NCBI GenBank assembly: GCA_003602605.1
Contig: QQRW01000028.1
Coordinates: forward strand, 169,129 to 215,011
DNA from: Candidatus Poseidoniales archaeon
GTDB taxonomy: Archaea > Thermoplasmatota > Poseidoniia > Poseidoniales > Poseidoniaceae
Direction: 5' to 3'
DNA: 45,883 nt
The position numbers and the translations under genes were made by a program. The stretch's first letter is position 1, and every line of letters begins with the position of its first letter. This document shows positions 4,679-40,893 of this stretch, piece after piece. The notes beneath the pieces were generated by a model. It was not told where the DNA came from. It was given only the letters and a program-made list of their open reading frames with translations, and searched no databases.

Positions 4679-7600
4679 ATGCAAAACGAATTTTCCAACG
4701 GGCGCGGCATAATGTTCGCACTTTTTCTCATCATGGTCCTGTCTCCAATGGGCCCAATGGCAGAAGTATTCGTAGGTTCTGCAGATGCTGCAGGCGTATC
4801 TCGCCACATCTATGAGTTCAGTGATGGTACGACAGAACATGTGGCATTGTATCAAGGTGCGAATCCTGATATTGGGGCAGAAGTAAGCCTACCCAAAGGT
4901 GCACATGTCACTGAAGTTTCCATGACACTCTCTGGAGCATCTGCTACTGGTTGGAGCCAGTCGGTAACTGACGACCGTGATGAATGGATTGCAGGTGACG
5001 CTTCATCAACCGATTCGCGCAGCGGAGAACTGAGTCTTGATTTGTCGAACAGTTCGACAAGCTTCTTTGCGCATGGGACTGATGAAGCAATAAATCCAAC
5101 ATCAGACGCATGGCTGGACAACGGTTCATACGCTGTACGCCAACCACACACATCCAACTCAACTGAAAGTAGGTTTTCTCAACAAGTTCTCAAGTCCTCA
5201 AACGCATTGATGAAACAAAGTCAAGGTGCAGTTCTCAAGCATCATGACTGGTTGTTTATGTCGACATGGAGTACTTCCACATTCCAAAACATCGTTCACA
5301 GGCTTTATCCAAACAATGCTACCAAAGAATCAGTCATTACATTAGACCAAGCACAGTGCACTCTACCAAATCTACACTCATCTTCATACTATGCAAACTA
5401 TGGATTCCGTGATTGGACGATTACCGACGATGAACGTATGTTTGCCATATTGTCTGGATACAAATACCACTATTCCTCCTCAGCCCCTACGCAATATCAC
5501 CGTGTTTTGGAAATGGATATCTCAAGGGATGATGTTTGGACATGTATAGACTCTTATGATGTATCTCCGCAGTATTCAGATTACACTGCGATTGCATACG
5601 ACCGCACGACGGAAGACGTTTGGATTGTACACAATGCGCAACGAAGAATCGTCCCTTACACATTCGGTGATGCTCCTGATGGGACATACACTCGTGGAGA
5701 CGATATGTATTCGTTTTCATCTTCATCTGGCAGCTCTTGGGAGTGTGGCAAAACCGGACAACAAGTTCGTGGGTTGGAAGTGAATGAAACGACGTTCTTC
5801 ATGCGTTGCCAAAAAGGCTCGACGAGTCAAGACAAGGACCAACTGGAAGCATGGACGGTCTCTGGATCATCCACTTCTCTCGTCCCTCAGTCCGGAACAC
5901 GACTCCTCTCAGCACTCGGTTATGGACTCCAATTTGATGGTTCACGTTTTGTCACAATCGATTGTGGGTATTCGACTTGGTCGTCATCGACGCTTTACTA
6001 CCGAGAATACGGCACTGGATGGCAATTCAAGACAACACCTGCGCCAGGCACAACTACTTGGCTTGGACCAATGATTAGTTCGAACGAACCGGTTCTTGCT
6101 GCAAACATGCAGACCTACTGGTCAGCCGCATCGATTGGCGACCGTGTTGATTACTGGATTTCCGCCGATAACGGAACGCACTGGGAGCCAGTGACTTCCA
6201 ATTCCACGATTCACTTTGATTATCCCGGTAAGGAACTCATTTGGAAAGCCCAACTCATTGGCTCAACTGCAGTTTCATGGTGGGTCGATGTCGAGTATGC
6301 TACAGAATACATAACGTCCGGTAGTTGGACTTCTCCGCCTCAAGTCACCGGCACCAAAGTCGGCAAAGTTCGACCCAATTGGCAGGCAGATGTTCCAGCA
6401 GGAACATCTGTTCTTGTACAGGTTTCAAACGATAACGGCTCGTCATGGTTACCAGCACTTAACAATCAAGAAGTCAGTTTCCCTTCAACCGAAGCAGGCG
6501 ATACCATTCGCTACGCAATCAGTATGACTTCATCTGATGCCTCTATTACCCCACTCATCGATTCAGTGACCATGGAGTACGAAGAAGGCTATCCAGACCG
6601 ACCCAAGATTGACATAGGCAACGACCTCGTTTGGGATTGGGAGTCGGTACTTTTCCTCAATGAATCATCGGTCATTGCTAGTGATATGTCCCTCGTTAAT
6701 GCTGAAGTGAAATCCCAGCCCACCCTTGTTCAAGCGTTTAATTCATTTATCCCTCAGAACGGTGATGGTGATGTTACCATTCCTATAGCGATCAAGGCAG
6801 CAACACCGGGGCGTGTTAAAATCTCCAACATTGATATTGCGTACAAGTTGCAAACCCGAGCAGTCGATGCTTCACTCGAAGGTGGGATGATTTCCCCCGA
6901 TGGAGTGATGAGAAATTTGCATGTTCGTGTAGCGCCTGGTGATGATGTCGACCGTGTGACGAGTGCACTTGTTGCTCTCAACAATTCATACGGGGAAAAC
7001 CCGGCTTTTGAATGGGAGCGCGGTGATACATGTTCAGTTGTTAGCGATGCAGGTGGTATTGTTCAGTTTGATGTAGCGAACTGCACTTCCGTGACGGACT
7101 CCACTGGTCAAGTTACAATTCGAATGCCAATGTCAGTAAATTGGACATGGGATGATGAAAGTGAATTGCAGGCACTGATTTCAGTCGATGATGAATTGGG
7201 CCAGGCGGTCGCTGCTTGGGAGACCGATTCTTTGGACATGGTTGTGGAAAACGATATCCAACTTGACGGACTTCGAGTGTTTGAAGAAACAGGCAGAGAA
7301 TTGTATTCTCTCGACTGGGTGCGTGGCGGATATCAGATTTCGTTTACCGGCGTGATACACTTCCAAAACTCTCAACTTACTCCGTTAGGTGGTCAGTTTG
7401 CCCTACGGATTTTGGGTCAAAACGTGACCTATGATGGTGACCCCATCGGCGAACCAGTCGAACTTGCCCGTGAACAGAATCCTGCATTTGGTGCCTTCAA
7501 CATCACCATCACTTCTCCAATGGAGTCAACACCTGGGGGTATGGTATTCTATGTGGAAGCAACTGATTTGAAAAACGGTTCAATGTTTACCAACCCGGGC

Positions 7601-10225
7601 TACAATACTATTCGCCTAGTATTGGATGGGAATTCGCCTCTTGTTCTAGGTTCAACCCCTGAAGATGGCTCTGAACGTCATGCTGGACCACCTGCACCGG
7701 GAGGCCAAGCTCTCAGCTTCGTGATTCAAGACTCAGTCGATCCACCGAGCCAAATTACTCTCAACTACTGGATTGGATGCAAGGCAAGTGAGGCAATCGG
7801 TTGCAGCGATTACAATTTCGATGGTCTACCAAACGCAAATGAGTACGAAATGAAGGTCCTCAATTCACCTGATACTCAAACTGGTGGATTGAACATCTTT
7901 GATGGCCTTATCGATGATTCGATGCTCGAACATGGCCAACTCGTTTCCTACTTTATCACAGGAAAGGATGCTCAAGATAACGCTATTGCGATGGGTGGTG
8001 GGCCCGTTTGTCCAGATAGTAATACTGCATGCGGTTATGTTCCTGGTGAGACAGAACCGGATTGGGACAATGATTTGGGAACATATCGTATACGTGTAGA
8101 GTTTGAACCCAAATTGGATTTAGACAATTCCACTATTCTTGGACATGATGATTCTTCACCACTCCATCCAGGAATCCCATATACTGCTCAAATTGTTCTT
8201 TCTGACCGCAACGGATGGGAAGACATTCAGTACATTCAATTGGCACTTGGTGGAGACTTTGAAGACGATGAGAGTTCACTTTTCATCTCCTTGACAAAAG
8301 GCCATGATGGTATGCCTATCGCTGTCATGGAATCCGGCTCTGCAAACATCGCCGTTTCAAACCTCTATTCAAGTGTGAGTCTCGATGAAAACGATAATTC
8401 CATCATCAAGATTCTTGCTCGATTCCAACTCACATGGACGTTCCCTGAAGTCTTTGATACCGACGGACAAAGTTTGGTGATTCCAAAGATTCTAGTCACG
8501 GACTTGCCATGTAACGATATTGAAGTCACGCCATGTTTCGAAGCCAAGGAAGGTTTGGGTAACGATGCCTGGAGCCTTGACAATGATTTCCGATTTGACA
8601 CCATGGAAGGTCACATACGTGCAGTTGAACTCCGTGACGGGACAAACCACTACAATTCTGAATTCGAAGAAACTCTCATTGGTGCGGGGCAAGCGCTTCG
8701 TGTCAACGGTCGAATCCTTTTCTCTGAAGATGAAACCCCTGCGCCTCCGGGTGCATTTGATGTCGTATTTGGTGACTATGACAACACATGGACGACCTCG
8801 ACCCGTGAGGACGGCGAGTTCAGTCTCGATTTATTGATCCCATCCGTTCCATCCGGTCATCTTGATTTACAGTTAGGCCTCGGTGATTTGCCAGGTTTCG
8901 CAATGGATGAAACCTCTATCACGCAACGTGTTCGTTTGGCTGTGGACAGTTCACGACCAACAATCGCAGCCATCACTCTTGATGAAGTCACGACGGGTTC
9001 ACCACTCTCGATTGGTGCCTGTGGTGACTTGCTTGTGATGCTTGAAACACTCGATGACTACGGCTTCGATATGGACGAACCAGCAGTTCTTCACTACAGG
9101 GTTCGTGCTGGCGAGGCTGAAATATCAAGAGGCAGTGTTCCGCTTCCGGATACGACTCCATTCGGTGAGCAGTTCTTTTGGACCGGTAGCCTCGATTTGA
9201 CAGATGCGGGAGCAACGACTCTTCTGCCTTCGTACATGGTGGATGTTTGGGTCTCCGGGTCTGATTCCGCAGGTAATCCATTTGATACAATTGGCAACTC
9301 CATCAATGAACCGATTGCATCATGGTCATTGGCCTTGCTTGGGCCAAGTATCGACCTTAACGCTGCAACCAGCAGTTTCTCTTGGGACGACCCAAGTCCA
9401 ATCGCACAACAATCTGTGAACCTTGATTTCGAAGTTCGGAACATTGGTGGTAAGGGGGATGTTGCTTTGGTTCTACAGCGTGCTGTTGAAGGTGGATTTT
9501 GGGAGGATGTAGCGCGAGTTGACATTGTTGCCACGGCTGGCGGCGATCTCACCGGTTCTCTGCCAACTGTAGCAAATGCAGGTGTTGGTGAAAGTATTGA
9601 ATTCCGCCTCCTTGTTTTGGTTGATGAGGTTGAAATGGACCGCGCCTCGCTCGACCCACTGTTCATCAAAGAGCAGACGATTCGTGACGGAGAAGCATTG
9701 GCAAAACAAGCTCAAGAAGGGACATTCAGTATTGTTCTCTACATTATTGCACTGCTTTCGCTGAGCATGGCTATGTATCTCCTAGTGATGAATCGACGAA
9801 TCCGTGAAGGCGACTTAGATGCTGGTGCTGAGGACCAAACTGACGAAGTGCTCGAAGATCTTGAAAAGACGAAACAAATTCCATCAATTGATTCAAATCT
9901 GCCTGCTCCAACTGGTTTGGCATCTGGAGTGCCTCAACCGAATCCATCGGTTGTCTTCAGCCCAAATGTTGAGCCAACACCCGCCTCTCTGTCAGCTTCC
10001 CTTTCTGCATCTAAACCTGGTTCTTCTTCACCAGGTCTGGTTCAAAACATCACTTACAACATCACGGACAGTGCGGTGGGAGCAATTCCGACTACGAATT
10101 CAGTTAATGACGGTATGCCGGCTAGAGCTCCACCACCTCTACCTCCTACCGGTCTACCTGAAGGATGGACGCTCGATCAATGGAATCATTTCGGTTGGCA
10201 ATATATTGAATCAATGAAGAAGTGA
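4679..10225 (+). CDS. Giant type I membrane-anchored surface protein with Pro-rich cytoplasmic tail and C-terminal GWTxxQW motif
   Basis: N-terminal hydrophobic signal (MFALFLIMVLSPMGPMAEVFV), long beta-rich ectodomain, TM near C-terminus (FSIVLYIIALLSLSMAMYLLVMNRRIREG), tail ending PPPLPPTGLPEGWTLDQWNHFGWQYIESMKK. Confidence 0.85.
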   Translation: MQNEFSNGRGIMFALFLIMVLSPMGPMAEVFVGSADAAGVSRHIYEFSDGTTEHVALYQGANPDIGAEVSLPKGAHVTEVSMTLSGASATGWSQSVTDDRDEWIAGDASSTDSRSGELSLDLSNSSTSFFAHGTDEAINPTSDAWLDNGSYAVRQPHTSNSTESRFSQQVLKSSNALMKQSQGAVLKHHDWLFMSTWSTSTFQNIVHRLYPNNATKESVITLDQAQCTLPNLHSSSYYANYGFRDWTITDDERMFAILSGYKYHYSSSAPTQYHRVLEMDISRDDVWTCIDSYDVSPQYSDYTAIAYDRTTEDVWIVHNAQRRIVPYTFGDAPDGTYTRGDDMYSFSSSSGSSWECGKTGQQVRGLEVNETTFFMRCQKGSTSQDKDQLEAWTVSGSSTSLVPQSGTRLLSALGYGLQFDGSRFVTIDCGYSTWSSSTLYYREYGTGWQFKTTPAPGTTTWLGPMISSNEPVLAANMQTYWSAASIGDRVDYWISADNGTHWEPVTSNSTIHFDYPGKELIWKAQLIGSTAVSWWVDVEYATEYITSGSWTSPPQVTGTKVGKVRPNWQADVPAGTSVLVQVSNDNGSSWLPALNNQEVSFPSTEAGDTIRYAISMTSSDASITPLIDSVTMEYEEGYPDRPKIDIGNDLVWDWESVLFLNESSVIASDMSLVNAEVKSQPTLVQAFNSFIPQNGDGDVTIPIAIKAATPGRVKISNIDIAYKLQTRAVDASLEGGMISPDGVMRNLHVRVAPGDDVDRVTSALVALNNSYGENPAFEWERGDTCSVVSDAGGIVQFDVANCTSVTDSTGQVTIRMPMSVNWTWDDESELQALISVDDELGQAVAAWETDSLDMVVENDIQLDGLRVFEETGRELYSLDWVRGGYQISFTGVIHFQNSQLTPLGGQFALRILGQNVTYDGDPIGEPVELAREQNPAFGAFNITITSPMESTPGGMVFYVEATDLKNGSMFTNPGYNTIRLVLDGNSPLVLGSTPEDGSERHAGPPAPGGQALSFVIQDSVDPPSQITLNYWIGCKASEAIGCSDYNFDGLPNANEYEMKVLNSPDTQTGGLNIFDGLIDDSMLEHGQLVSYFITGKDAQDNAIAMGGGPVCPDSNTACGYVPGETEPDWDNDLGTYRIRVEFEPKLDLDNSTILGHDDSSPLHPGIPYTAQIVLSDRNGWEDIQYIQLALGGDFEDDESSLFISLTKGHDGMPIAVMESGSANIAVSNLYSSVSLDENDNSIIKILARFQLTWTFPEVFDTDGQSLVIPKILVTDLPCNDIEVTPCFEAKEGLGNDAWSLDNDFRFDTMEGHIRAVELRDGTNHYNSEFEETLIGAGQALRVNGRILFSEDETPAPPGAFDVVFGDYDNTWTTSTREDGEFSLDLLIPSVPSGHLDLQLGLGDLPGFAMDETSITQRVRLAVDSSRPTIAAITLDEVTTGSPLSIGACGDLLVMLETLDDYGFDMDEPAVLHYRVRAGEAEISRGSVPLPDTTPFGEQFFWTGSLDLTDAGATTLLPSYMVDVWVSGSDSAGNPFDTIGNSINEPIASWSLALLGPSIDLNAATSSFSWDDPSPIAQQSVNLDFEVRNIGGKGDVALVLQRAVEGGFWEDVARVDIVATAGGDLTGSLPTVANAGVGESIEFRLLVLVDEVEMDRASLDPLFIKEQTIRDGEALAKQAQEGTFSIVLYIIALLSLSMAMYLLVMNRRIREGDLDAGAEDQTDEVLEDLEKTKQIPSIDSNLPAPTGLASGVPQPNPSVVFSPNVEPTPASLSASLSASKPGSSSPGLVQNITYNITDSAVGAIPTTNSVNDGMPARAPPPLPPTGLPEGWTLDQWNHFGWQYIESMKK

Positions 10226-17276: not shown

Positions 17277-19514
17277 TCATTCTTCTTCAAACGATTTGAT
17301 TTGAAGTGTTGAAGGAATTCTTGCTGCTGTCGGTTCACCATCCATGCGTCCGTTGAGTTCGACATCGACAGTGTTAGCAGTGCCACTGATTTCTACCATG
17401 ATGAATGTTCGATTTCCATTTGCCATTGTGTCAAGGAATACTTCCTCTCCTCGATTTAGGAATCTCGGTTCAACATTTTCGACATTCCAAGCCTGACCTA
17501 CAGGTGCATCAAATCGTAGTGCTGCTAAATCCCAGTTGCCTTCAACAATGTGAATTCCAACCATGAGTGGTGTTGCATCTTCAGACTTGGCAATCCTTCG
17601 GTCGAGTTTCCATACCGCCATTGCAACGGTATCTGTGCGGTAGTCAAGATCAGGTTTGCCCCATGCCGAGTTTGCTTCGTCCCATGACAGCAATGTCACG
17701 GCTTGAAGGGCTCGTGCAAGACTTGCACGCGATTGCTTTGGTGTAGTCTCCCCTGAATCTAATTGCGATTTATACCAAGCGAGTTGCTCAGATTTCATCG
17801 AGAATTCACGAGCTGTTTTCGAATTGCGATATTGGACCAAGCCAAAGTACAGGACAGGTAAAAGGAACAACGACCCAAGGAAGAAACGCGCCCTCACCCC
17901 CCACTTCTGAGCATTTTCATCCGGCGGGAAATACGGTTCCTCACCTTCATCAATTTCCAAGTAGGTCGACGATAAGAAATATGCTATTGCAGGCGCATCT
18001 TCTCCCCAAGGATGTGGTGTGCTGTTGGTCGCATCGACAATTGCCACACGGAGGAAATGTGTCCCTGGCCCCACCTCCAGCGACGCCTGAATTTTACCGT
18101 TCGAGTAGACACTCCGACGAGAATCAATGACTTCCCAAGATTCTTGGTCCATGTTCCAGACCTCCACCTCAAATTGCTCGATGCTTGTGCTTTCAAGAGT
18201 GAAGCGGATGAGGTGCTCCGATTCTTCCCATCCGTTTACTTCTAGCCGATATACATCTGCAGTATCATGAACGGCAAGGGTCATTTGGCCTTCAACTGGC
18301 CCTGACTCTAGATTCATCAATGGCCATGAGGTGTTGTCACTCTGCTGGGACAGAGGCCGGACAGAAGGTGCTTCAAGGCCGGAGCTGATGTCCGAGAAAT
18401 CTTCGACCATCAAGTCAACATAATGAACTGGAGAGTCAAAATGAACACGAACTGCACTAATGTTCGGGTATGGATAAAAGGTGTATGCCGTATCGAAAGT
18501 GATGTTCTTTCCAGCACCCAATATCCATGTTCCACCAACGAGTTGGTCTACGGTGATCGATGTGTTCGTAAATAACGGCTCGAATGTGAATTTCTCGGTA
18601 TCATCCATCGTAAGCATTGCCGTAGTGGAATGATGTCCTACAAAGTGCATGAGTTCTAAACTTTCGGTGAGCTGAAGGGATGCGTTGTGAGCATACAGCA
18701 TCGTTTTGATGGCCCATGCAGTACCAGCAATACTTGCCTCAATCTTCACCACAGCTCGACCTGACTCATCAAAGAACCAATGACCATTATCGCTGTTCAT
18801 TGTCGGACTTATTCCCTGAGACTGGATTAATTCGTTACCATGCAAATTTTCACTCGAATCACTTTGAAAGTAGACTGAAATCTCAAGGCCATTTGTGGCG
18901 TGCATTGGCTGGAGTTCAAGTGTATCTCCACTTTCCACATTGAACACTACATACTCCGAACCAGATTGCTCGTGAACTCCCGTGATGAAGTCGTGGGATG
19001 AATATTCACCGTTCGGCACACCGTTAAGATGTCCTCTGGTTGGTTGAATACATTCGGTGATATTGGAGCAGTACTCAACGGTCTCAGCCTCTACAACTTC
19101 AGATGGGGCTGGGCGTACCGTTGGGAAGGACTCGTTAATTGATTCGATCAAGGAATAGTACACATTTTCTTCAATTGGTGAATGTATACTGAGTGCAACA
19201 TTGCCACTTGCAGCGGCTTGAACAGTAAGGGCATCAGTGGATTGGTAGGTCGTCCCGGCGAGATTCATTTCAGCAGTGCATTGTTGGCATTCAAGGACGA
19301 GACTGGTCCAATGCCCTTCTTCTATGGTCCATTGACGCGTGTGGTTGTCGACTCCGTTCGACGAATATCCGGTAATTCGCCCGTCCGTATGGATGGAGTC
19401 TCCGCCTCCATTTTCCGCTGCTACGAAGGGTACAGGGTAAAATGAAAGAATGCAGAGTAAGCATGTCAAGAACACACCAGTGCTCATCCGACGCAGTGAC
19501 ATGTTGCCGTCCAT
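17277..19514 (-). CDS. Secreted/membrane-anchored surface protein with ~190 aa cytoplasmic domain
   Basis: N-terminal signal (MSTGVFLTCLLCILSFYPVPFVAAENGG), ectodomain, TM (FFLGSLFLLPVLYFGLVQYRNSK) followed by a folded-looking C-terminal region. MSLRRMS (19502) is an alternative start. Confidence 0.8.
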   Translation of the reverse strand: MDGNMSLRRMSTGVFLTCLLCILSFYPVPFVAAENGGGDSIHTDGRITGYSSNGVDNHTRQWTIEEGHWTSLVLECQQCTAEMNLAGTTYQSTDALTVQAAASGNVALSIHSPIEENVYYSLIESINESFPTVRPAPSEVVEAETVEYCSNITECIQPTRGHLNGVPNGEYSSHDFITGVHEQSGSEYVVFNVESGDTLELQPMHATNGLEISVYFQSDSSENLHGNELIQSQGISPTMNSDNGHWFFDESGRAVVKIEASIAGTAWAIKTMLYAHNASLQLTESLELMHFVGHHSTTAMLTMDDTEKFTFEPLFTNTSITVDQLVGGTWILGAGKNITFDTAYTFYPYPNISAVRVHFDSPVHYVDLMVEDFSDISSGLEAPSVRPLSQQSDNTSWPLMNLESGPVEGQMTLAVHDTADVYRLEVNGWEESEHLIRFTLESTSIEQFEVEVWNMDQESWEVIDSRRSVYSNGKIQASLEVGPGTHFLRVAIVDATNSTPHPWGEDAPAIAYFLSSTYLEIDEGEEPYFPPDENAQKWGVRARFFLGSLFLLPVLYFGLVQYRNSKTAREFSMKSEQLAWYKSQLDSGETTPKQSRASLARALQAVTLLSWDEANSAWGKPDLDYRTDTVAMAVWKLDRRIAKSEDATPLMVGIHIVEGNWDLAALRFDAPVGQAWNVENVEPRFLNRGEEVFLDTMANGNRTFIMVEISGTANTVDVELNGRMDGEPTAARIPSTLQIKSFEEE

Positions 19515-19538
19515 ATATGACCCTGTGAAGTATGCTCT

Positions 19539-21374
19539 TTGAACTTAGGCCCTTCTTCGTGTCCAATGCTTGAAGAAGCAATGGCTTTTGGCCCAACCAT
19601 GGAGGATGGGTTAGGTCGAACGGTGACAGCACGTTACCGCTTTGCTCGCGAGTGGGCTTTGGGTGACCGTAAGAGTCCACAGTCGTCGACACCAGCCCTG
19701 GTTTTACTTGACGGTGATCCGGACGTATCAGCGCACATCGCTCCATTCCGCTCTTCCACCGATGATGCGATTCCAGCTACCCTTCATTTTGAATCTCGAC
19801 TTCCATTGTCTCCGCCAGATTTTTCGATTAATTCTCCTTCATGGAGTGTTTCAATTGGCCACGTTCTCCCTCCTTCCCTCGACGAAGCAGATGCAGGTGA
19901 GGCAGCGGGCACTGCGCAGGTTTTGCCAGTTTCCTGGCAGAGGCTTAATCACGATTCAACCCTTACAAATCCTGAACTCAAGCCAGATGTGGTCGTGCTT
20001 GTTGATGCCGTCCAACTTGCGGCACAGCCTGGTAGGTTGGTTGAGGCAATATCTATTCTGAAGCAACAATTCCCTGGCGCTCTTTTGTGGACTCCCGGTT
20101 TGGGTGGGCCTGACAATTTAGCAGTACTGGTTTGGTTCGGTGTTGATTTGTTTGACCTCTCTCGATCCCGCCAAGCTGCCGCTGCAGGAGTCTTGTTGAC
20201 AGAACAAGGTCCTCGACATCCTGTTGCTTCAATGGACGAATCTACAGGCATAGAGGAACAGATTTCACATTGGAGCAACGCTATTGCATCAGTTCGAGGT
20301 GCATTGGCTGTTGACCAAATGAGGTCTCTTGTTGATCGCCAATCCCTCACCAGTCCGAGACTTGTCGAACATTTGCGCCGTCATGACCTCTTGTGTCAAA
20401 ACATCCCGGGACTGCTTTCATCGCATGTGGCAGCGGATTTCAAATTCCCGTGCCATTCAGCCTCCGTTCAAAATGACCCGTTGATAAACGACTGGGAATC
20501 CTTCATGACTACGAAATACTCTGCTCCTGATGGATTAGATACTGTTTTGGTACTGTTGCCGTGTTCTGCTCGAAAACCATATCGACTCTCCAAATCTCAT
20601 GGTCGCTTCATTCGTGCAATTGGAACCAGTGCATGCCACGAGGTCATGGTCACATCGCCTCTTGGGCTTGTTCCTCGCGATCTCGAAGAAGTTTGGCCAG
20701 CAGGACATTATGATGTACCGGTTACTGGAGATTGGACTGGCGATGAACTAGCAAGAATCCAACGTATGTTCCGTGTTTTGGTTGATCGGCATGATTACAA
20801 GAGAATAATCAATCATTCAGGAATTCATTTTGAACACCCCTCGGTTGAGGTTGTCGAGACTCGACAAGGCGATTCCGCGGGCTCACATGATGCATTGGAG
20901 CGTCTTTCTGAAGCGGTTCGTAATGCCGTAGACACCTTCAGTGCTCGTGGGCGCAAGACTGAGAAGATTTTACTGGACAATTTTGCGAGCATTTCTCGAA
21001 AGCAAATGAACAATGATGCTTGGCTTGCTGACATGAAAGTGCGTGGGAAGCCTCCCCGCTATCGACTTGAGCGAAATAAAAGCCAAATGGCGCTTTGGTC
21101 CATCGATCGAAGTGGTTTTTCTCTACCGAAGGCAGTTATACCAACATTGGATGAACTCAACTCGTTACCTGCAGTTCATCTTCGGCCAGATGTTGCATGG
21201 AAGGGCGACATTTTTGGAGTTCTGGTCGAATCATTCGACAAGTCAATACGTGCCGGAAGTGACGTCTTGGTTTACCAAAACGGTACAGTGGTTGGATTGG
21301 CTCGAGCTCACGCACCCGCATGGGAATGGCCGAACACTCCGGGGCGATTAGCAAAGTCTCACCAACGACTGTGA
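19539..21374 (+). CDS. arcS: Archaeosine synthase ArcS (TgtA2-type tRNA-guanine transglycosylase paralog)
   Basis: LLPCSARKPYRLSKSHGRF signature of the ArcS core, TGT-like N-terminal half, C-terminal PUA-like GSDVLVYQNGTVVGLARA. Confidence 0.87.
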   Translation: MNLGPSSCPMLEEAMAFGPTMEDGLGRTVTARYRFAREWALGDRKSPQSSTPALVLLDGDPDVSAHIAPFRSSTDDAIPATLHFESRLPLSPPDFSINSPSWSVSIGHVLPPSLDEADAGEAAGTAQVLPVSWQRLNHDSTLTNPELKPDVVVLVDAVQLAAQPGRLVEAISILKQQFPGALLWTPGLGGPDNLAVLVWFGVDLFDLSRSRQAAAAGVLLTEQGPRHPVASMDESTGIEEQISHWSNAIASVRGALAVDQMRSLVDRQSLTSPRLVEHLRRHDLLCQNIPGLLSSHVAADFKFPCHSASVQNDPLINDWESFMTTKYSAPDGLDTVLVLLPCSARKPYRLSKSHGRFIRAIGTSACHEVMVTSPLGLVPRDLEEVWPAGHYDVPVTGDWTGDELARIQRMFRVLVDRHDYKRIINHSGIHFEHPSVEVVETRQGDSAGSHDALERLSEAVRNAVDTFSARGRKTEKILLDNFASISRKQMNNDAWLADMKVRGKPPRYRLERNKSQMALWSIDRSGFSLPKAVIPTLDELNSLPAVHLRPDVAWKGDIFGVLVESFDKSIRAGSDVLVYQNGTVVGLARAHAPAWEWPNTPGRLAKSHQRL

Positions 21375-35913: not shown

Positions 35914-38900
35914 ATGCAGGGCACTCGACAACCATTGCTCATGCTCGTTGTGCTTCTGCTTACATCGGCTAGCCCGTTGTTAATGGATGACTTTTCATCA
36001 TCACATTCGCTTGCTAGCGACGAACCAAAACAACTTTCAGAAGCTGAACGCCTCGACTTGGCACAGCAATTGTGGTCTCCGCTCGAGTCCTCAAGTATTT
36101 TTGCTACCGATCTTCAAGATTCAAGCGGTATTTTGCGACTTCAAGCAGGTGAATATGACCCGCTGTTGGCTGACGGCCCAGTCCTCAACAAAGCCTTCAT
36201 CGATTCTCAAGACCCTTCTCAAACCGGACTGGCTATGCTTCAACTGCACGAACACGACGGGGCCGTTCTTGATTCACTCTCGAAAACATACGGCCTTACT
36301 CCCCTTGATTTCATCGCAGATGAAGGATGGCTTGTTCGATTACCAGAACCACCTATGGCTTCCTTGGAATTGCTCCAATCTGACGAACGTGTCCGCTGGG
36401 CAGGACCACAACACCCAGGCTGGAGGATTCACAGCGAGCTGCTCTCAGTTTCAGGACACACGCATCTCGCCCTTGTTCCATCTTCTGATTTGGCACTCGG
36501 TGGTCTTGAGACCTTGAGCCTCGACTTGCTGCAAATGGGTGCATCTGAAGCATGGTGCGGAGTTGGACTGTGCGAAGTTAACTTCCATTCAAAACTACAG
36601 TCAACATTGCTTAACAACATCATGCATGATGGACGTATCATTTGGACTGAACCGACTCATGGACTGACTCTACACAATGCGCTGGCCGGTGGTATTGTCG
36701 GTACTGATGGCGTTGCAGCGAATGCTTCTTTCACACTTGACGGCTCTGGAGAAACCATTGCAATTGCCGATACCGGCGTTGATCAGGACCATCCAGACAT
36801 CTCTGGCAGAGTGGCAGGTGTATTCACGAACTTTGGTCTTGACTCCTCTCCCAAGGATTCGAATACAGGACATGGCACTCACATCGCACTCTCGGTACTT
36901 GGAGACGGTACTGGCGACTCAACCGCAGAAGGAATCGCTCCATCTGCAAACCTTGTCATGTATGCGCTTGAACACGACCCAACCGGCGTATTTGGAAGAC
37001 TTGGCTCAATTTACGACTTACTCAATGATGCGGAGCAACGAACTGCTCGCATTTCTGTTAACGCATGGGGCTCGAATGGCAACTACGGTCACTACACTGC
37101 AGACTCTCGTTCGGTCGACCTGCTTGTTCACCAAAAGAATACAGTCCTGCCTTTGTTTTCTGCGGGTGATCGAGGTGCCAGTGGCCCATCACAAGTTGCT
37201 GCACCATCGACAGGAAAGAATGTTCTTTCGGTGGGCACATCACAGACCGGTGCATTAAGCGGTACCGTCGCAAACATCTCCAGCCTCGGACCGAGTCTTG
37301 ATGGACGAATAAAGCCAGATATTGTTGCTCCAGGCATTGACATTTGCTCTGGTCTGGCTGAAGAGGCCAAGTCTCCCGGCGGCCCTTCATGTGCGAATGG
37401 AGTTCATGCGGACGGAACAACAAATCTCTACATGACGCTTTCAGGTTCATCACATGCGACTGCAATTGCAGGTGGCACGACCGCTCTCGTCAGAGAGTTC
37501 CTTCGTGAGCAAGTGAACATCAATTCACCTTCCGCATCACTCATCAAAGCAGCCGTCATCAACGGAGCTACAGACCTTGGAACTCCGGATATCCCCAATT
37601 CAGAGGAAGGGTGGGGGCAGGTCAATTTAGAACGTACTGTTCTGCCTATGGATGGCTCGTTTGCATTGGATACCTTCTTTGATCACAATAAGGAATTGAC
37701 TGCAGGATTTGGATTACTCTATTCATTTGATCTTGACCCGAGTCATGGTGTTGACATAACGCTTGCATGGTCGGATGTAGAAGGAAGTGCCAACGCCGCT
37801 CAGTCCTCTGCTCGGCTCGTTAACAACCTTGATCTGGTCATGGTCGACCCTGACGGTAATGAATGGCTCGGTAACGATTTCTTAAACGGGGTTTCGACAA
37901 CCGGTGGAAGCGCAGATACGCTCAACAATGTAGAGCGAATCAAGGTCGCTCCTGGCGTTCTCACCACTTCGGGTCAGTGGCAAATCAAAGTTCTTCACTC
38001 CGGTGGCCTCTCACAGAGATTCAGCCTCATTGTTGTAGCTGATGCAACATCAATTCCACAAGCTGATTTGGCCACATACGATGGAAGCATTGTACCATCA
38101 TCGGCAGAACCTCTCAAAGACGATCTCATTACCCTTCAGCTCGGTTGGATTAACCAAGGTACCCTCTCGACCGGTTCATTTCGTGTTACTCTTGAAGATT
38201 TGACAACCGGTCAGACGTTGTTCGATGCGGACAGATCTGCCCTTGAACCAGGAGAGATAGATTCGTTCTTGTTGCAACACCAATTCACAACTACCGGTAC
38301 ACATTCAATGCGCTTGAGTATCGACACCCTCGACCAAGTGAGCGAGATAAACGACGGAGTCTCGGGGGTTGACAATAATATTTGGGAGCAGGACATCGAA
38401 GTGACAGCACTTGGTGTTCGAGTTGTCGCACTTGACGATACGGGTTCAGCACCGACCTCTGCAGAGGACCGTGCATTGTCTGCAGTTCACACGTTTGATG
38501 TCCTTAATGCCTCATCGATTGATATCCCTATTCATATTCTGCACGAAGGGACTGGAGAGCAGCCTGTGACCATATCGGTTACGAATGTCCAAAAACCTCA
38601 ACCAGGCCGTCCTGATTTCTTACTTGCACCTGAGGATTCGTGGTCGAAAACAGTATCCGAAATTGGACCATATGTTTTACAAGGCCAAGGCGAGACGGGT
38701 GATTTCAAAGAACTCAATGTTACTCTCGTCAACAATTTCGTCGACCTCTCAAATCAAGATTCGCCTCGGTACGCTCGTGCTGGAACATTTGTTGTAGACA
38801 TTACTGCTCGCTACCAATCACAACCAACGGTCTCTCACACTCAGCGAATTACAATCATCGTTCCACAAGTCACGGATGTTAACATTGGAGCAGCGGGTAT

Positions 38901-40893
38901 CACTGGTCTTTCGGCAGCACCCGGTGAATCTACGGGTTTCTCAATTTCTGTCATGAACATCGGAAACACTCCGGCGCAGTATTCAGTCTCGTGTGAGTCT
39001 GCGAATAGATGGCAGATTCAACTCGGAAATTCCAATTCATCTACCTTGGAATTTGAACCTCTTAACATTAAGGAATCCTTGCCAATGCTCATTCAAATAT
39101 GGGTTCCACCAGTTTCCAATGGAGTTCCAGAAGCCGGTTCGACCGATACAGTGACCTGCCAAGTGAATTCCCCAACTGACCCAACACTCAATTTCACTCA
39201 GTCTGTGGAAGTGTTGGTTTTGGCACAGGAATCCTTTGACAGCGATCTTTACGATGACATAGGGCCCATAGGCCCCTCTTCCTCGAATCGAATTATTATG
39301 GTTGACACCGCTCAACAAGTCAATTTGAATCTAACCGTAGAAAACACGGGTAACAAGGAAATCGACTTGGATGTTAAAATCCAACCAAGTAACCCACTTT
39401 GGCCTATCGAGGTTACCTACATGGGCCAGCAAAACAGCCGTCAAATCTCTCTTACATTACTCGGTGGTGAAGTGGCAACAGTCCATTTCGTCATTGGTGT
39501 CCCTCCAGTAGCGGAGGAGGGTGAAGTCAACAACTTCGTTATTCGAACTGAAAAATCAGCTCAATCCTTCGTTTCCAATACGACGGTATTGAAGGTACGA
39601 GACGACCTCTCCATGGATCTCTTTGGGCCCGAATCTGGCGTCATTGAAACAGTCATTTCAACGGACTTTTCGTTTGGTGAATTTACTGTCGTCAATACCG
39701 GTAATGCAGCTCTGACGCTGAATTGGAGCAATGGCTTAGCAGCAGATGGATGGGTTGTTGGTTACGCGAATCCGAGCACATACATTGAACCTCGAGAGGA
39801 GCGAACAGTCCGCCTGGGTTTCATACCTCCTACTAATACTCCTGTCACTGAAAAGGCCTTTGAACTGGTAGCAACAGTTACAGGATTTAGCAACGGTAGG
39901 TCCGTGCAGAACTCCATTACGGTAGATGTGGCAGTCGTCGAGTCTGTATTTGCGAACTTCACGGTTCAAGACCCCACAGTTGCACCGTTTTCGTCCGTTG
40001 CACGTGGTGTCGCTGCAACTCAAAATATTGTGATCCGTAACGACGGCAATGTCCCTCTCAGCGGGGATCTTCTGTCTCAAGTTCTGGATCAAGAAGGAAA
40101 TGTTTCTTCAGATTGGACGCTTGTCTGTTCGCCTCTTTCGCTTGAAAACCTCGGAGTTGGTGAAGAACGCATTGTTTCACTGGAACTTACTCCAAGTACA
40201 GATGCGATGAAAGGGCTGCATTTTTCGACATTGAGTCTCACTTCGAATGGTGCTGTAATCGGTACACTTTCTATCGAGACGACCGTGGAGTCCGCTACGG
40301 GGACTGAAGGGTTCTTGGGTGGATTGCCGATTTATGTCAGTGTTCCTCTTGTCAGCATCATACTGCTTGCAGCAATTGTTGTTGCACTTCGACTGAAGAA
40401 GAGCGGTGAACTCACCGACTCGGGTGAAGAGCTGGTTGCGCCTGATGCCTTTGTCAATCCCGACCATCTTGGAACTCGACGCAGTGATGCACTCGATATC
40501 GGTCACGCAGTTAATGAACTTGCAAGCGGCGAGGTTTCCTCAGAAGAAATAGCAGCTGCTCTGGCCCAATCCCTTGACATGCCATCATCGGTGCCTCAAG
40601 CGATTCCACCGGTGGGATCACCGCCTGCAGGATTACCACCTGTTGGAATGCCACCTCGAGGTCTTCCCCTACCTGTGCCTGCAGGAATGCCGCCTGCTGG
40701 ATTGCCGCCGAAGTCCCTGCCAAAACTTCCTTTGCCGATGCCGGCTCAACCGATACCGGCCCCAATGCCAGCCCCTGCCCCTGCAACCCCCATACCTGCG
40801 ACTGGCCCTCCACTACCACCGAGCGGTTTGCCGAACGGGTGGACCATGGAACAATGGCAACACTACGGCCAGCAATGGTTAGACAGGCAGTGA
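35914..40893 (+). CDS. Membrane-anchored subtilisin-family (S8) peptidase with Pro-rich cytoplasmic tail and GWTxxQW C-terminus
   Basis: Asp IAIADTGVDQDHPD, His GHGTHIALS, Ser LSGSSHATAIAGG; post-catalytic beta domain; NEW3/CARDB-like repeats; TM (GGLPIYVSVPLVSIILLAAIVVALRLKK); tail ends GPPLPPSGLPNGWTMEQWQHYGQQWLDRQ. Confidence 0.92.
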   Translation: MQGTRQPLLMLVVLLLTSASPLLMDDFSSSHSLASDEPKQLSEAERLDLAQQLWSPLESSSIFATDLQDSSGILRLQAGEYDPLLADGPVLNKAFIDSQDPSQTGLAMLQLHEHDGAVLDSLSKTYGLTPLDFIADEGWLVRLPEPPMASLELLQSDERVRWAGPQHPGWRIHSELLSVSGHTHLALVPSSDLALGGLETLSLDLLQMGASEAWCGVGLCEVNFHSKLQSTLLNNIMHDGRIIWTEPTHGLTLHNALAGGIVGTDGVAANASFTLDGSGETIAIADTGVDQDHPDISGRVAGVFTNFGLDSSPKDSNTGHGTHIALSVLGDGTGDSTAEGIAPSANLVMYALEHDPTGVFGRLGSIYDLLNDAEQRTARISVNAWGSNGNYGHYTADSRSVDLLVHQKNTVLPLFSAGDRGASGPSQVAAPSTGKNVLSVGTSQTGALSGTVANISSLGPSLDGRIKPDIVAPGIDICSGLAEEAKSPGGPSCANGVHADGTTNLYMTLSGSSHATAIAGGTTALVREFLREQVNINSPSASLIKAAVINGATDLGTPDIPNSEEGWGQVNLERTVLPMDGSFALDTFFDHNKELTAGFGLLYSFDLDPSHGVDITLAWSDVEGSANAAQSSARLVNNLDLVMVDPDGNEWLGNDFLNGVSTTGGSADTLNNVERIKVAPGVLTTSGQWQIKVLHSGGLSQRFSLIVVADATSIPQADLATYDGSIVPSSAEPLKDDLITLQLGWINQGTLSTGSFRVTLEDLTTGQTLFDADRSALEPGEIDSFLLQHQFTTTGTHSMRLSIDTLDQVSEINDGVSGVDNNIWEQDIEVTALGVRVVALDDTGSAPTSAEDRALSAVHTFDVLNASSIDIPIHILHEGTGEQPVTISVTNVQKPQPGRPDFLLAPEDSWSKTVSEIGPYVLQGQGETGDFKELNVTLVNNFVDLSNQDSPRYARAGTFVVDITARYQSQPTVSHTQRITIIVPQVTDVNIGAAGITGLSAAPGESTGFSISVMNIGNTPAQYSVSCESANRWQIQLGNSNSSTLEFEPLNIKESLPMLIQIWVPPVSNGVPEAGSTDTVTCQVNSPTDPTLNFTQSVEVLVLAQESFDSDLYDDIGPIGPSSSNRIIMVDTAQQVNLNLTVENTGNKEIDLDVKIQPSNPLWPIEVTYMGQQNSRQISLTLLGGEVATVHFVIGVPPVAEEGEVNNFVIRTEKSAQSFVSNTTVLKVRDDLSMDLFGPESGVIETVISTDFSFGEFTVVNTGNAALTLNWSNGLAADGWVVGYANPSTYIEPREERTVRLGFIPPTNTPVTEKAFELVATVTGFSNGRSVQNSITVDVAVVESVFANFTVQDPTVAPFSSVARGVAATQNIVIRNDGNVPLSGDLLSQVLDQEGNVSSDWTLVCSPLSLENLGVGEERIVSLELTPSTDAMKGLHFSTLSLTSNGAVIGTLSIETTVESATGTEGFLGGLPIYVSVPLVSIILLAAIVVALRLKKSGELTDSGEELVAPDAFVNPDHLGTRRSDALDIGHAVNELASGEVSSEEIAAALAQSLDMPSSVPQAIPPVGSPPAGLPPVGMPPRGLPLPVPAGMPPAGLPPKSLPKLPLPMPAQPIPAPMPAPAPATPIPATGPPLPPSGLPNGWTMEQWQHYGQQWLDRQ

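Follow-up and report, generated by a model that had tools for sequence, protein, structure and literature searches.

In integrins and cadherins, one transmembrane helix (TM) joins a large ectodomain to a conserved cytoplasmic sequence at which an internal partner docks. The proteins described here, from the archaeal order Poseidoniales, share this plan of large ectodomain, single TM and conserved tail; while each receptor family has its own tail in the former, a single mini-module in Poseidoniales is spread over nine or more unrelated families of ectodomain. Also comparable are the CTERM signals (PEP-CTERM, PGF-CTERM, GlyGly-CTERM and MYXO-CTERM), in which the signature precedes the TM, a basic cluster comes last and a dedicated membrane protease cleaves the protein (PMC3237569, PMC11980579). 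Like these, the Poseidoniales element is a short homologous C-terminal segment by a TM, present on many unrelated proteins that a single lineage exports, but its signature forms a separate island past the TM and a long linker that is predicted to be cytoplasmic. Poseidoniales are uncultured. They are described as the most numerous archaea in the plankton of ocean surface waters (PMC6461757), and published work has counted their extracellular peptidases (PMC6336850); we found no mention of such a tail in that study, nor a description of it in literature searches.

The window, by which we mean the entire 45,883-nucleotide stretch analyzed, encodes on its plus strand a subtilase of 1659 aa (35914..40893) with a signal peptide at residues ~6-24, a single C-terminal TM and a predicted cytoplasmic tail. 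Motifs of catalytic type (DTGVDQDHPD, GHGTH and SGSSHAT) were spotted by eye in the translation, and the Peptidase_S8 catalytic domain at residues 277-568 (36742..37617) matches PF00082 with an E-value of 6.5e-38 and a score of 131 bits versus a cutoff of 21.8, the nearest solved structures being KP-43/SubHal-type subtilases (1wmd, E 6.6e-56; 5fax). A long beta-rich region lies between this domain and the TM (residues 1473-1491; 40330..40386), which AlphaFold2 models as a helix with pLDDT 92-96 and which is followed by RLKKSGE and a short charged or acidic stretch. The remainder comprises a juxtamembrane segment conserved among orthologues and predicted to lie on the cytoplasmic side (residues 1492-1556; 40387..40581), a Pro-rich linker that varies in length and sequence among orthologues (residues 1557-1631; 40582..40806; pLDDT 53-68), and the shared tail PPLPPSGLPNGWTMEQWQHYGQQWLDRQ (residues 1632-1659; 40807..40890), made of a Pro-rich arm and an amphipathic helix at residues 1645-1658. 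This succession of TM, acidic segment, Pro-rich repeat and tail had been given in the initial annotation and holds in the ORF, with two corrections of detail: the repeat begins GSPPAG and not GMPPAG, and the feature start at 40580 sits one base inside a codon.

The same annotation had placed this tail also on a giant single-pass surface protein of 1848 aa with the architecture of the subtilase (4679..10225, plus strand), and this proved correct: the copy at its end, PPLPPTGLPEGWTLDQWNHFGWQYIESMKK (10133..10222), matches the subtilase tail at 62% over 26 residues (E 2e-9; profile E 6.6e-17). A search with the subtilase tail alone returned 10 clear copies in the window's own 2.02-Mb genome, and a profile built from 10 tails (alignment A1) confirmed 10 with E-values of 1e-14 to 1e-17, a recurrence far above chance. 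Each of the 10 lies in a long ORF, at or near the C-terminus and with a single hydrophobic segment close to that end, and an N-terminal signal peptide is visible in most. The closed genome of a relative (G056) also carries 10 copies, and among the copies of both genomes none was on a soluble protein, a TM being found upstream throughout. The profile gave four further weak matches in the window's genome, of which those on contig C8 and at C21:170653 were judged to be chance; the other two, on contig C32, make up a divergent tandem copy. An eleventh protein of this genome, a PA14/LamG surface protein on C32 (L019, 5289-10541), ends in a divergent tandem tail, LPAGWSHEQYRVWLEGEMPSGWTLLQW..., and its orthologues L102 and L121 have the same layout of a tandem GW..EQW ending.

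Among the 340 genomes of the class that were searched, the tail was present in 318 of 319 Poseidoniales, the exception being one 67%-complete MAG, and in none of 21 from the sister family; 255 genomes from other families of the phylum also yielded none. A phylum-wide search of 390 genomes gave 127 with a match, every one from Poseidoniales, and a scan of GTDB contigs gave at least 80 loci whose listed record names were Poseidoniales, Poseidoniaceae, Thalassarchaeaceae, Euryarchaeota and Thermoplasmatota MAGs. The tail is thus far restricted to the order, at 3-12 copies per genome in Poseidoniaceae (f1) and mostly 1-7 in Thalassarchaeaceae (f2). A single IMG/VR match, IPDGWTPEQWMYWAK, within an 812-aa phage-portal-like protein was attributed to chance, and viral carriage was rejected. 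Orthologues from the sister family were considered as a 'before' state, but relatives of the subtilase (2/8) and of the giant protein (0/8, the latter sought without a positive control) allow no comparison.

When 184 tail proteins were clustered by ectodomain, they fell into 10 clusters, representing nine unrelated families and one subtilase fragment. Assigned from domain matches and from reading of the sequences, the families are the subtilase, a PKD/CARDB pair, a CARDB/NEW3-like group, a thioredoxin-like/cadherin-like group, the giant protein of the window, a propeller/TSP3 group, a second CARDB/Ig group, an arylsulfotransferase-like/TSP3 group, and a small protein with a CxxxCH motif. The expectation that other enzymes and binding proteins would carry the tail was therefore borne out by the arylsulfotransferase-like, thioredoxin-like (CxxC motif), propeller/TSP3 and PKD carriers. 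Nine unrelated ectodomains bearing one tail indicate that the module either travels between proteins that are not related or has been appended to them.

That the tail is cytoplasmic, as had been proposed, is also what we predict from hydropathy and the positive-inside rule. Among 188 distinct stretches that include the tail and a stop codon, a hydrophobic helix was found upstream in all 185 that had enough upstream sequence, and the positive charges lie on the tail side: the 15 residues after the TM hold 2.94 K/R on average versus 0.33 before it, with more after than before in 169 cases, equal numbers in 15 and fewer in one. The linker from TM to tail is rich in P, A, S and E and ranges from 19 to 147 residues (median 71), a free variation that fits a tether and not a membrane-proximal function. 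The motif usually ends 7-13 residues ahead of the stop codon, with 39 residues following it in one PKD orthologue group. Across 177 distinct tails there is no variation at P4, G7, P9, W12, Q16, W17 and G21, and almost none at L8, G11, Y20, P1 and T/S13; P4, G7, P9, Q16 and similar sites were partly fixed by the collecting pattern, while a pattern-free alignment (A2) gave the same conserved columns and the profile-found tails of A1 the same invariant set. Between the window's genome (G000) and G056, nine orthologue pairs are 68-96% identical in the tail versus 21-69%, often with gaps, in the linker, and conservation beside a drifting linker argues that selection maintains the tail. Sharing the pattern P(1)..P4..G7-L8-P9.G11-W12..Q16-W17..Y20-G21 close to the C-terminus, an upstream TM and K/R on the inner side, these tails constitute a new family by motif, TM and charge, the Poseidoniales type-I cytoplasmic tail.

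In predicted structure the tail stands out from what surrounds it. An AlphaFold2 model of the 40-residue tail, made with 57 sequences, had a mean pLDDT of 79, rising to 80-89 in the motif, and placed a helix at 26-39; when the 198 residues from TM to C-terminus were modeled together, confidence was high for the TM (92-96) and the tail (91-93, with 91 in the proline arm) alone, and the linker and juxtamembrane segment mostly stayed at 53-68. The models thus suggest with some confidence a mini-fold of proline arm and helix on a low-confidence linker. A polyproline arm, a turn and an aromatic amphipathic helix within about 30-36 residues also make up the pancreatic-polypeptide fold; the likeness is of layout only, with no sequence relation found and no match by Foldseek against the PDB. 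PPLP is a known class of WW ligand, the tail starts with PPLP, and its LPxGW resembles the start of a WW domain (E 0.04). A WW domain is a three-stranded sheet, whereas the tail is predicted to be helical, and with no Pfam match to PF00397 and a single helix and no strands from AlphaFold2, we rejected the tail as a WW domain. Other known folds were rejected as well, since searches of Pfam, NCBIfam and the PDB gave the tail no significant sequence match, and Foldseek gave it no fold match in the PDB.

Focusing on the subtilase itself, an orthologue was found in all 79 sampled Poseidoniales genomes, with an adenylate kinase gene a short way downstream, both in the window and in the Thalassarchaeaceae loci that were inspected. 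Absence of the tail from orthologous subtilases had been named as a refuting observation, and here the two families differ: all 26 complete Poseidoniaceae C-termini examined retain it, but five or six Thalassarchaeaceae subtilases are tailless (G297, G295, G211, G206 and G205, and perhaps G193, which has an internal stop in frame), most orthologues in that family keeping it. The tailless proteins terminate within or just past the Pro-rich linker, and no tail remnant was found near their ends in any frame. Loss of the tail with retention of the enzyme shows that the two are separable. A juxtamembrane motif, GEEL...RR..ALD...SGxVS..EI..AL, is conserved in the subtilases of both families, the tailless ones included (alignment A3), and the segment (40387-40581) is thus conserved across families despite its low AlphaFold2 confidence; perhaps it serves as a second binding site of its own. 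The same genomes of both families encode a second subtilase (L359, an ORF of 1541 aa on contig C10 of the window's genome; L360; G056 468563-473122), in which one C-terminal TM is followed by a Cys-rich, RING-like zinc-finger tail, CWSC...CPGCGARYH...C...CVNC, predicted to be cytoplasmic and weakly matched by Prok-RING_1 in Pfam (E 0.06). Together, tail loss in some Thalassarchaeaceae and the zinc-finger tail of the second subtilase count against a strict role in subtilases.

The best reading of these results, to which we assign a probability of about 0.5, treats the tail as a portable docking module by which single-pass surface proteins are attached to one partner that they share in the cytoplasm. 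Sharing among carriers, C-terminal position, the upstream TM, inside-positive charge, selective conservation, the predicted mini-fold and order-wide distribution are its computed support, and it is the reading that best fits a compact conserved module borne on the inner side by a freely varying tether, under unrelated outer domains and throughout the order. Signal peptides would export single-pass proteins with very different ectodomains until the C-terminal TM halts transfer, leaving the variable, flexible linker to hang into the cytoplasm with the mini-fold at its end. There, the proline arm PPLPxxGLP would meet the short amphipathic helix GWTxEQWxxYGxxWL in an independently folding unit, one common cytoplasmic partner would bind it, and surface enzymes and binding proteins would likely be co-anchored or placed under regulation. 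We infer binding of a protein by the tail, a partner common to the carriers, and organization as the result. An order-wide cytoplasmic tail on ecto-enzymes probably means that these enzymes are cell-bound and tied to something inside; the 28-residue tail also offers a defined bait for finding what organizes the archaeal surface, and a marker by which a functional subset of the surface proteins can be picked out in any MAG of the order. Against docking count the failure to find a reader and the fact that some subtilases lost the tail yet kept the enzyme, and the tail is not a universal surface anchor, since some 50 further type-I-like candidates of G056 end in different tails.

A similar sequence signature would also be expected if the tail served for self-association or as a turnover signal. 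If tails of different surface proteins bound one another, homo- or heterotypically, clustering would need no separate reader, an idea favored by the compact, aromatic-rich predicted mini-fold, by its presence on different proteins of each Poseidoniaceae genome (several to a dozen copies) and by the fact that no reader was found. Some Thalassarchaeaceae genomes hold a single copy, which would permit at most homotypic contacts, and an average net charge of about -2.5 per tail disfavors close packing of many copies, so that we regard such clustering as rather unlikely. Equally doubtful in our view is a signal for biogenesis, quality control or turnover, in which a chaperone, translocon factor or protease would read the tail of large single-pass proteins. 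The carriers are indeed mostly very large exported proteins of about 800-1850 aa, the predicted position is cytoplasmic, and a helix with aromatics is plausible for recognition by a chaperone or protease; yet two carriers have only 341 and 375 aa, many G056 surface proteins of equal size have no tail, and the 39 residues after the motif in the PKD group make a free C-terminus unnecessary.

The amphipathic helix presents W17, Y20, W/Y24 and L25 on a single face and could instead fold back on the inner leaflet and fix or sense the membrane. This is improbable given a tail that is acidic on average and has few K/R, an invariant Pro/Gly arm for which a membrane-lying helix provides no role, and linkers that are long and variable. 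A recurrent C-terminal segment on many exported TM proteins also recalls a CTERM/sortase-type sorting or cleavage signal, processing of which would release the protein or anchor it anew; here the motif comes 19-147 residues after the TM whereas the CTERM signature precedes it, a position that excludes such a signal for practical purposes and leaves it the least credible of the alternatives. NCBIfam CTERM models found nothing in the tails or in six full proteins, one sub-cutoff MtsC match covering TSP3 repeats and not the tail.

If the tail docks to a common partner, the abundance of PPLP makes WW domains a natural reader to consider. No reader of the tail was found, WW domains being absent from G000 and G056. 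The one genuine WW domain (L361, G211:C43:7636-7716; E 1.8e-7, above the Pfam cutoff) is in a large, apparently soluble Thalassarchaeaceae protein, whose G056 relative has a Pro-rich stretch at the WW site and no WW domain, so it was rejected as a conserved reader.

To place the tail among others, a crude hydropathy survey of G056 gave about 60 candidates with a signal peptide, a single TM and at least 40 cytoplasmic residues. Nine of these carry the PPLP-GW tail by a strict pattern, and a tenth copy is on the apparent 3′ half of a split gene; no other recurring tail was so frequent. The others were a Trp-rich tail (three strong cases and two smaller similar pairs), a Y/A/Q-rich helix (three), a zinc-ribbon (at least two) and a terminal LDDLL (two strong). 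A cytoplasmic 'tail code' of Poseidoniales, in which a few portable C-terminal modules (PPLP-GW, zinc-ribbon, RING-like, Trp-rich and LDDL-type) assign surface enzymes and adhesins to internal partners, is a tentative idea that we hold to be possible but not probable; if true, the exterior of a planktonic archaeon would be arranged from within.

Several of these endings can be described individually. The orthologue, at G056 1285814-1289427, of the tail protein on contig C2 of the window's genome appears to be split into two overlapping ORFs, possibly through a frameshift or assembly error. A Trp/Tyr-rich C-terminal module of about 28 residues, such as GHEYLEYPTGSGAWYYRRSSNAEWNEWAQ, is predicted to be cytoplasmic and has no Pfam match; its single-TM carriers in G056 are at 17704-20955, 1139351-1142779 and 1207219-1211004, and also at 294096-298415, 952969-957057 and 555770-557149. 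Zinc-ribbon-like CPxC...CPxC sequences are at the cytoplasmic C-terminus of G056 surface proteins at 989895-992438, 460481-463039, 1401741-1403795 and 1554784-1558863. DxSFLDDLL or similar acidic-hydrophobic endings are present on very large surface proteins (G056 339929-348286 and 1806108-1814402; L012 6194-10048), and the PKD carrier of the PPLP-GW tail has an ending of this kind as well, 39 residues past the tail.
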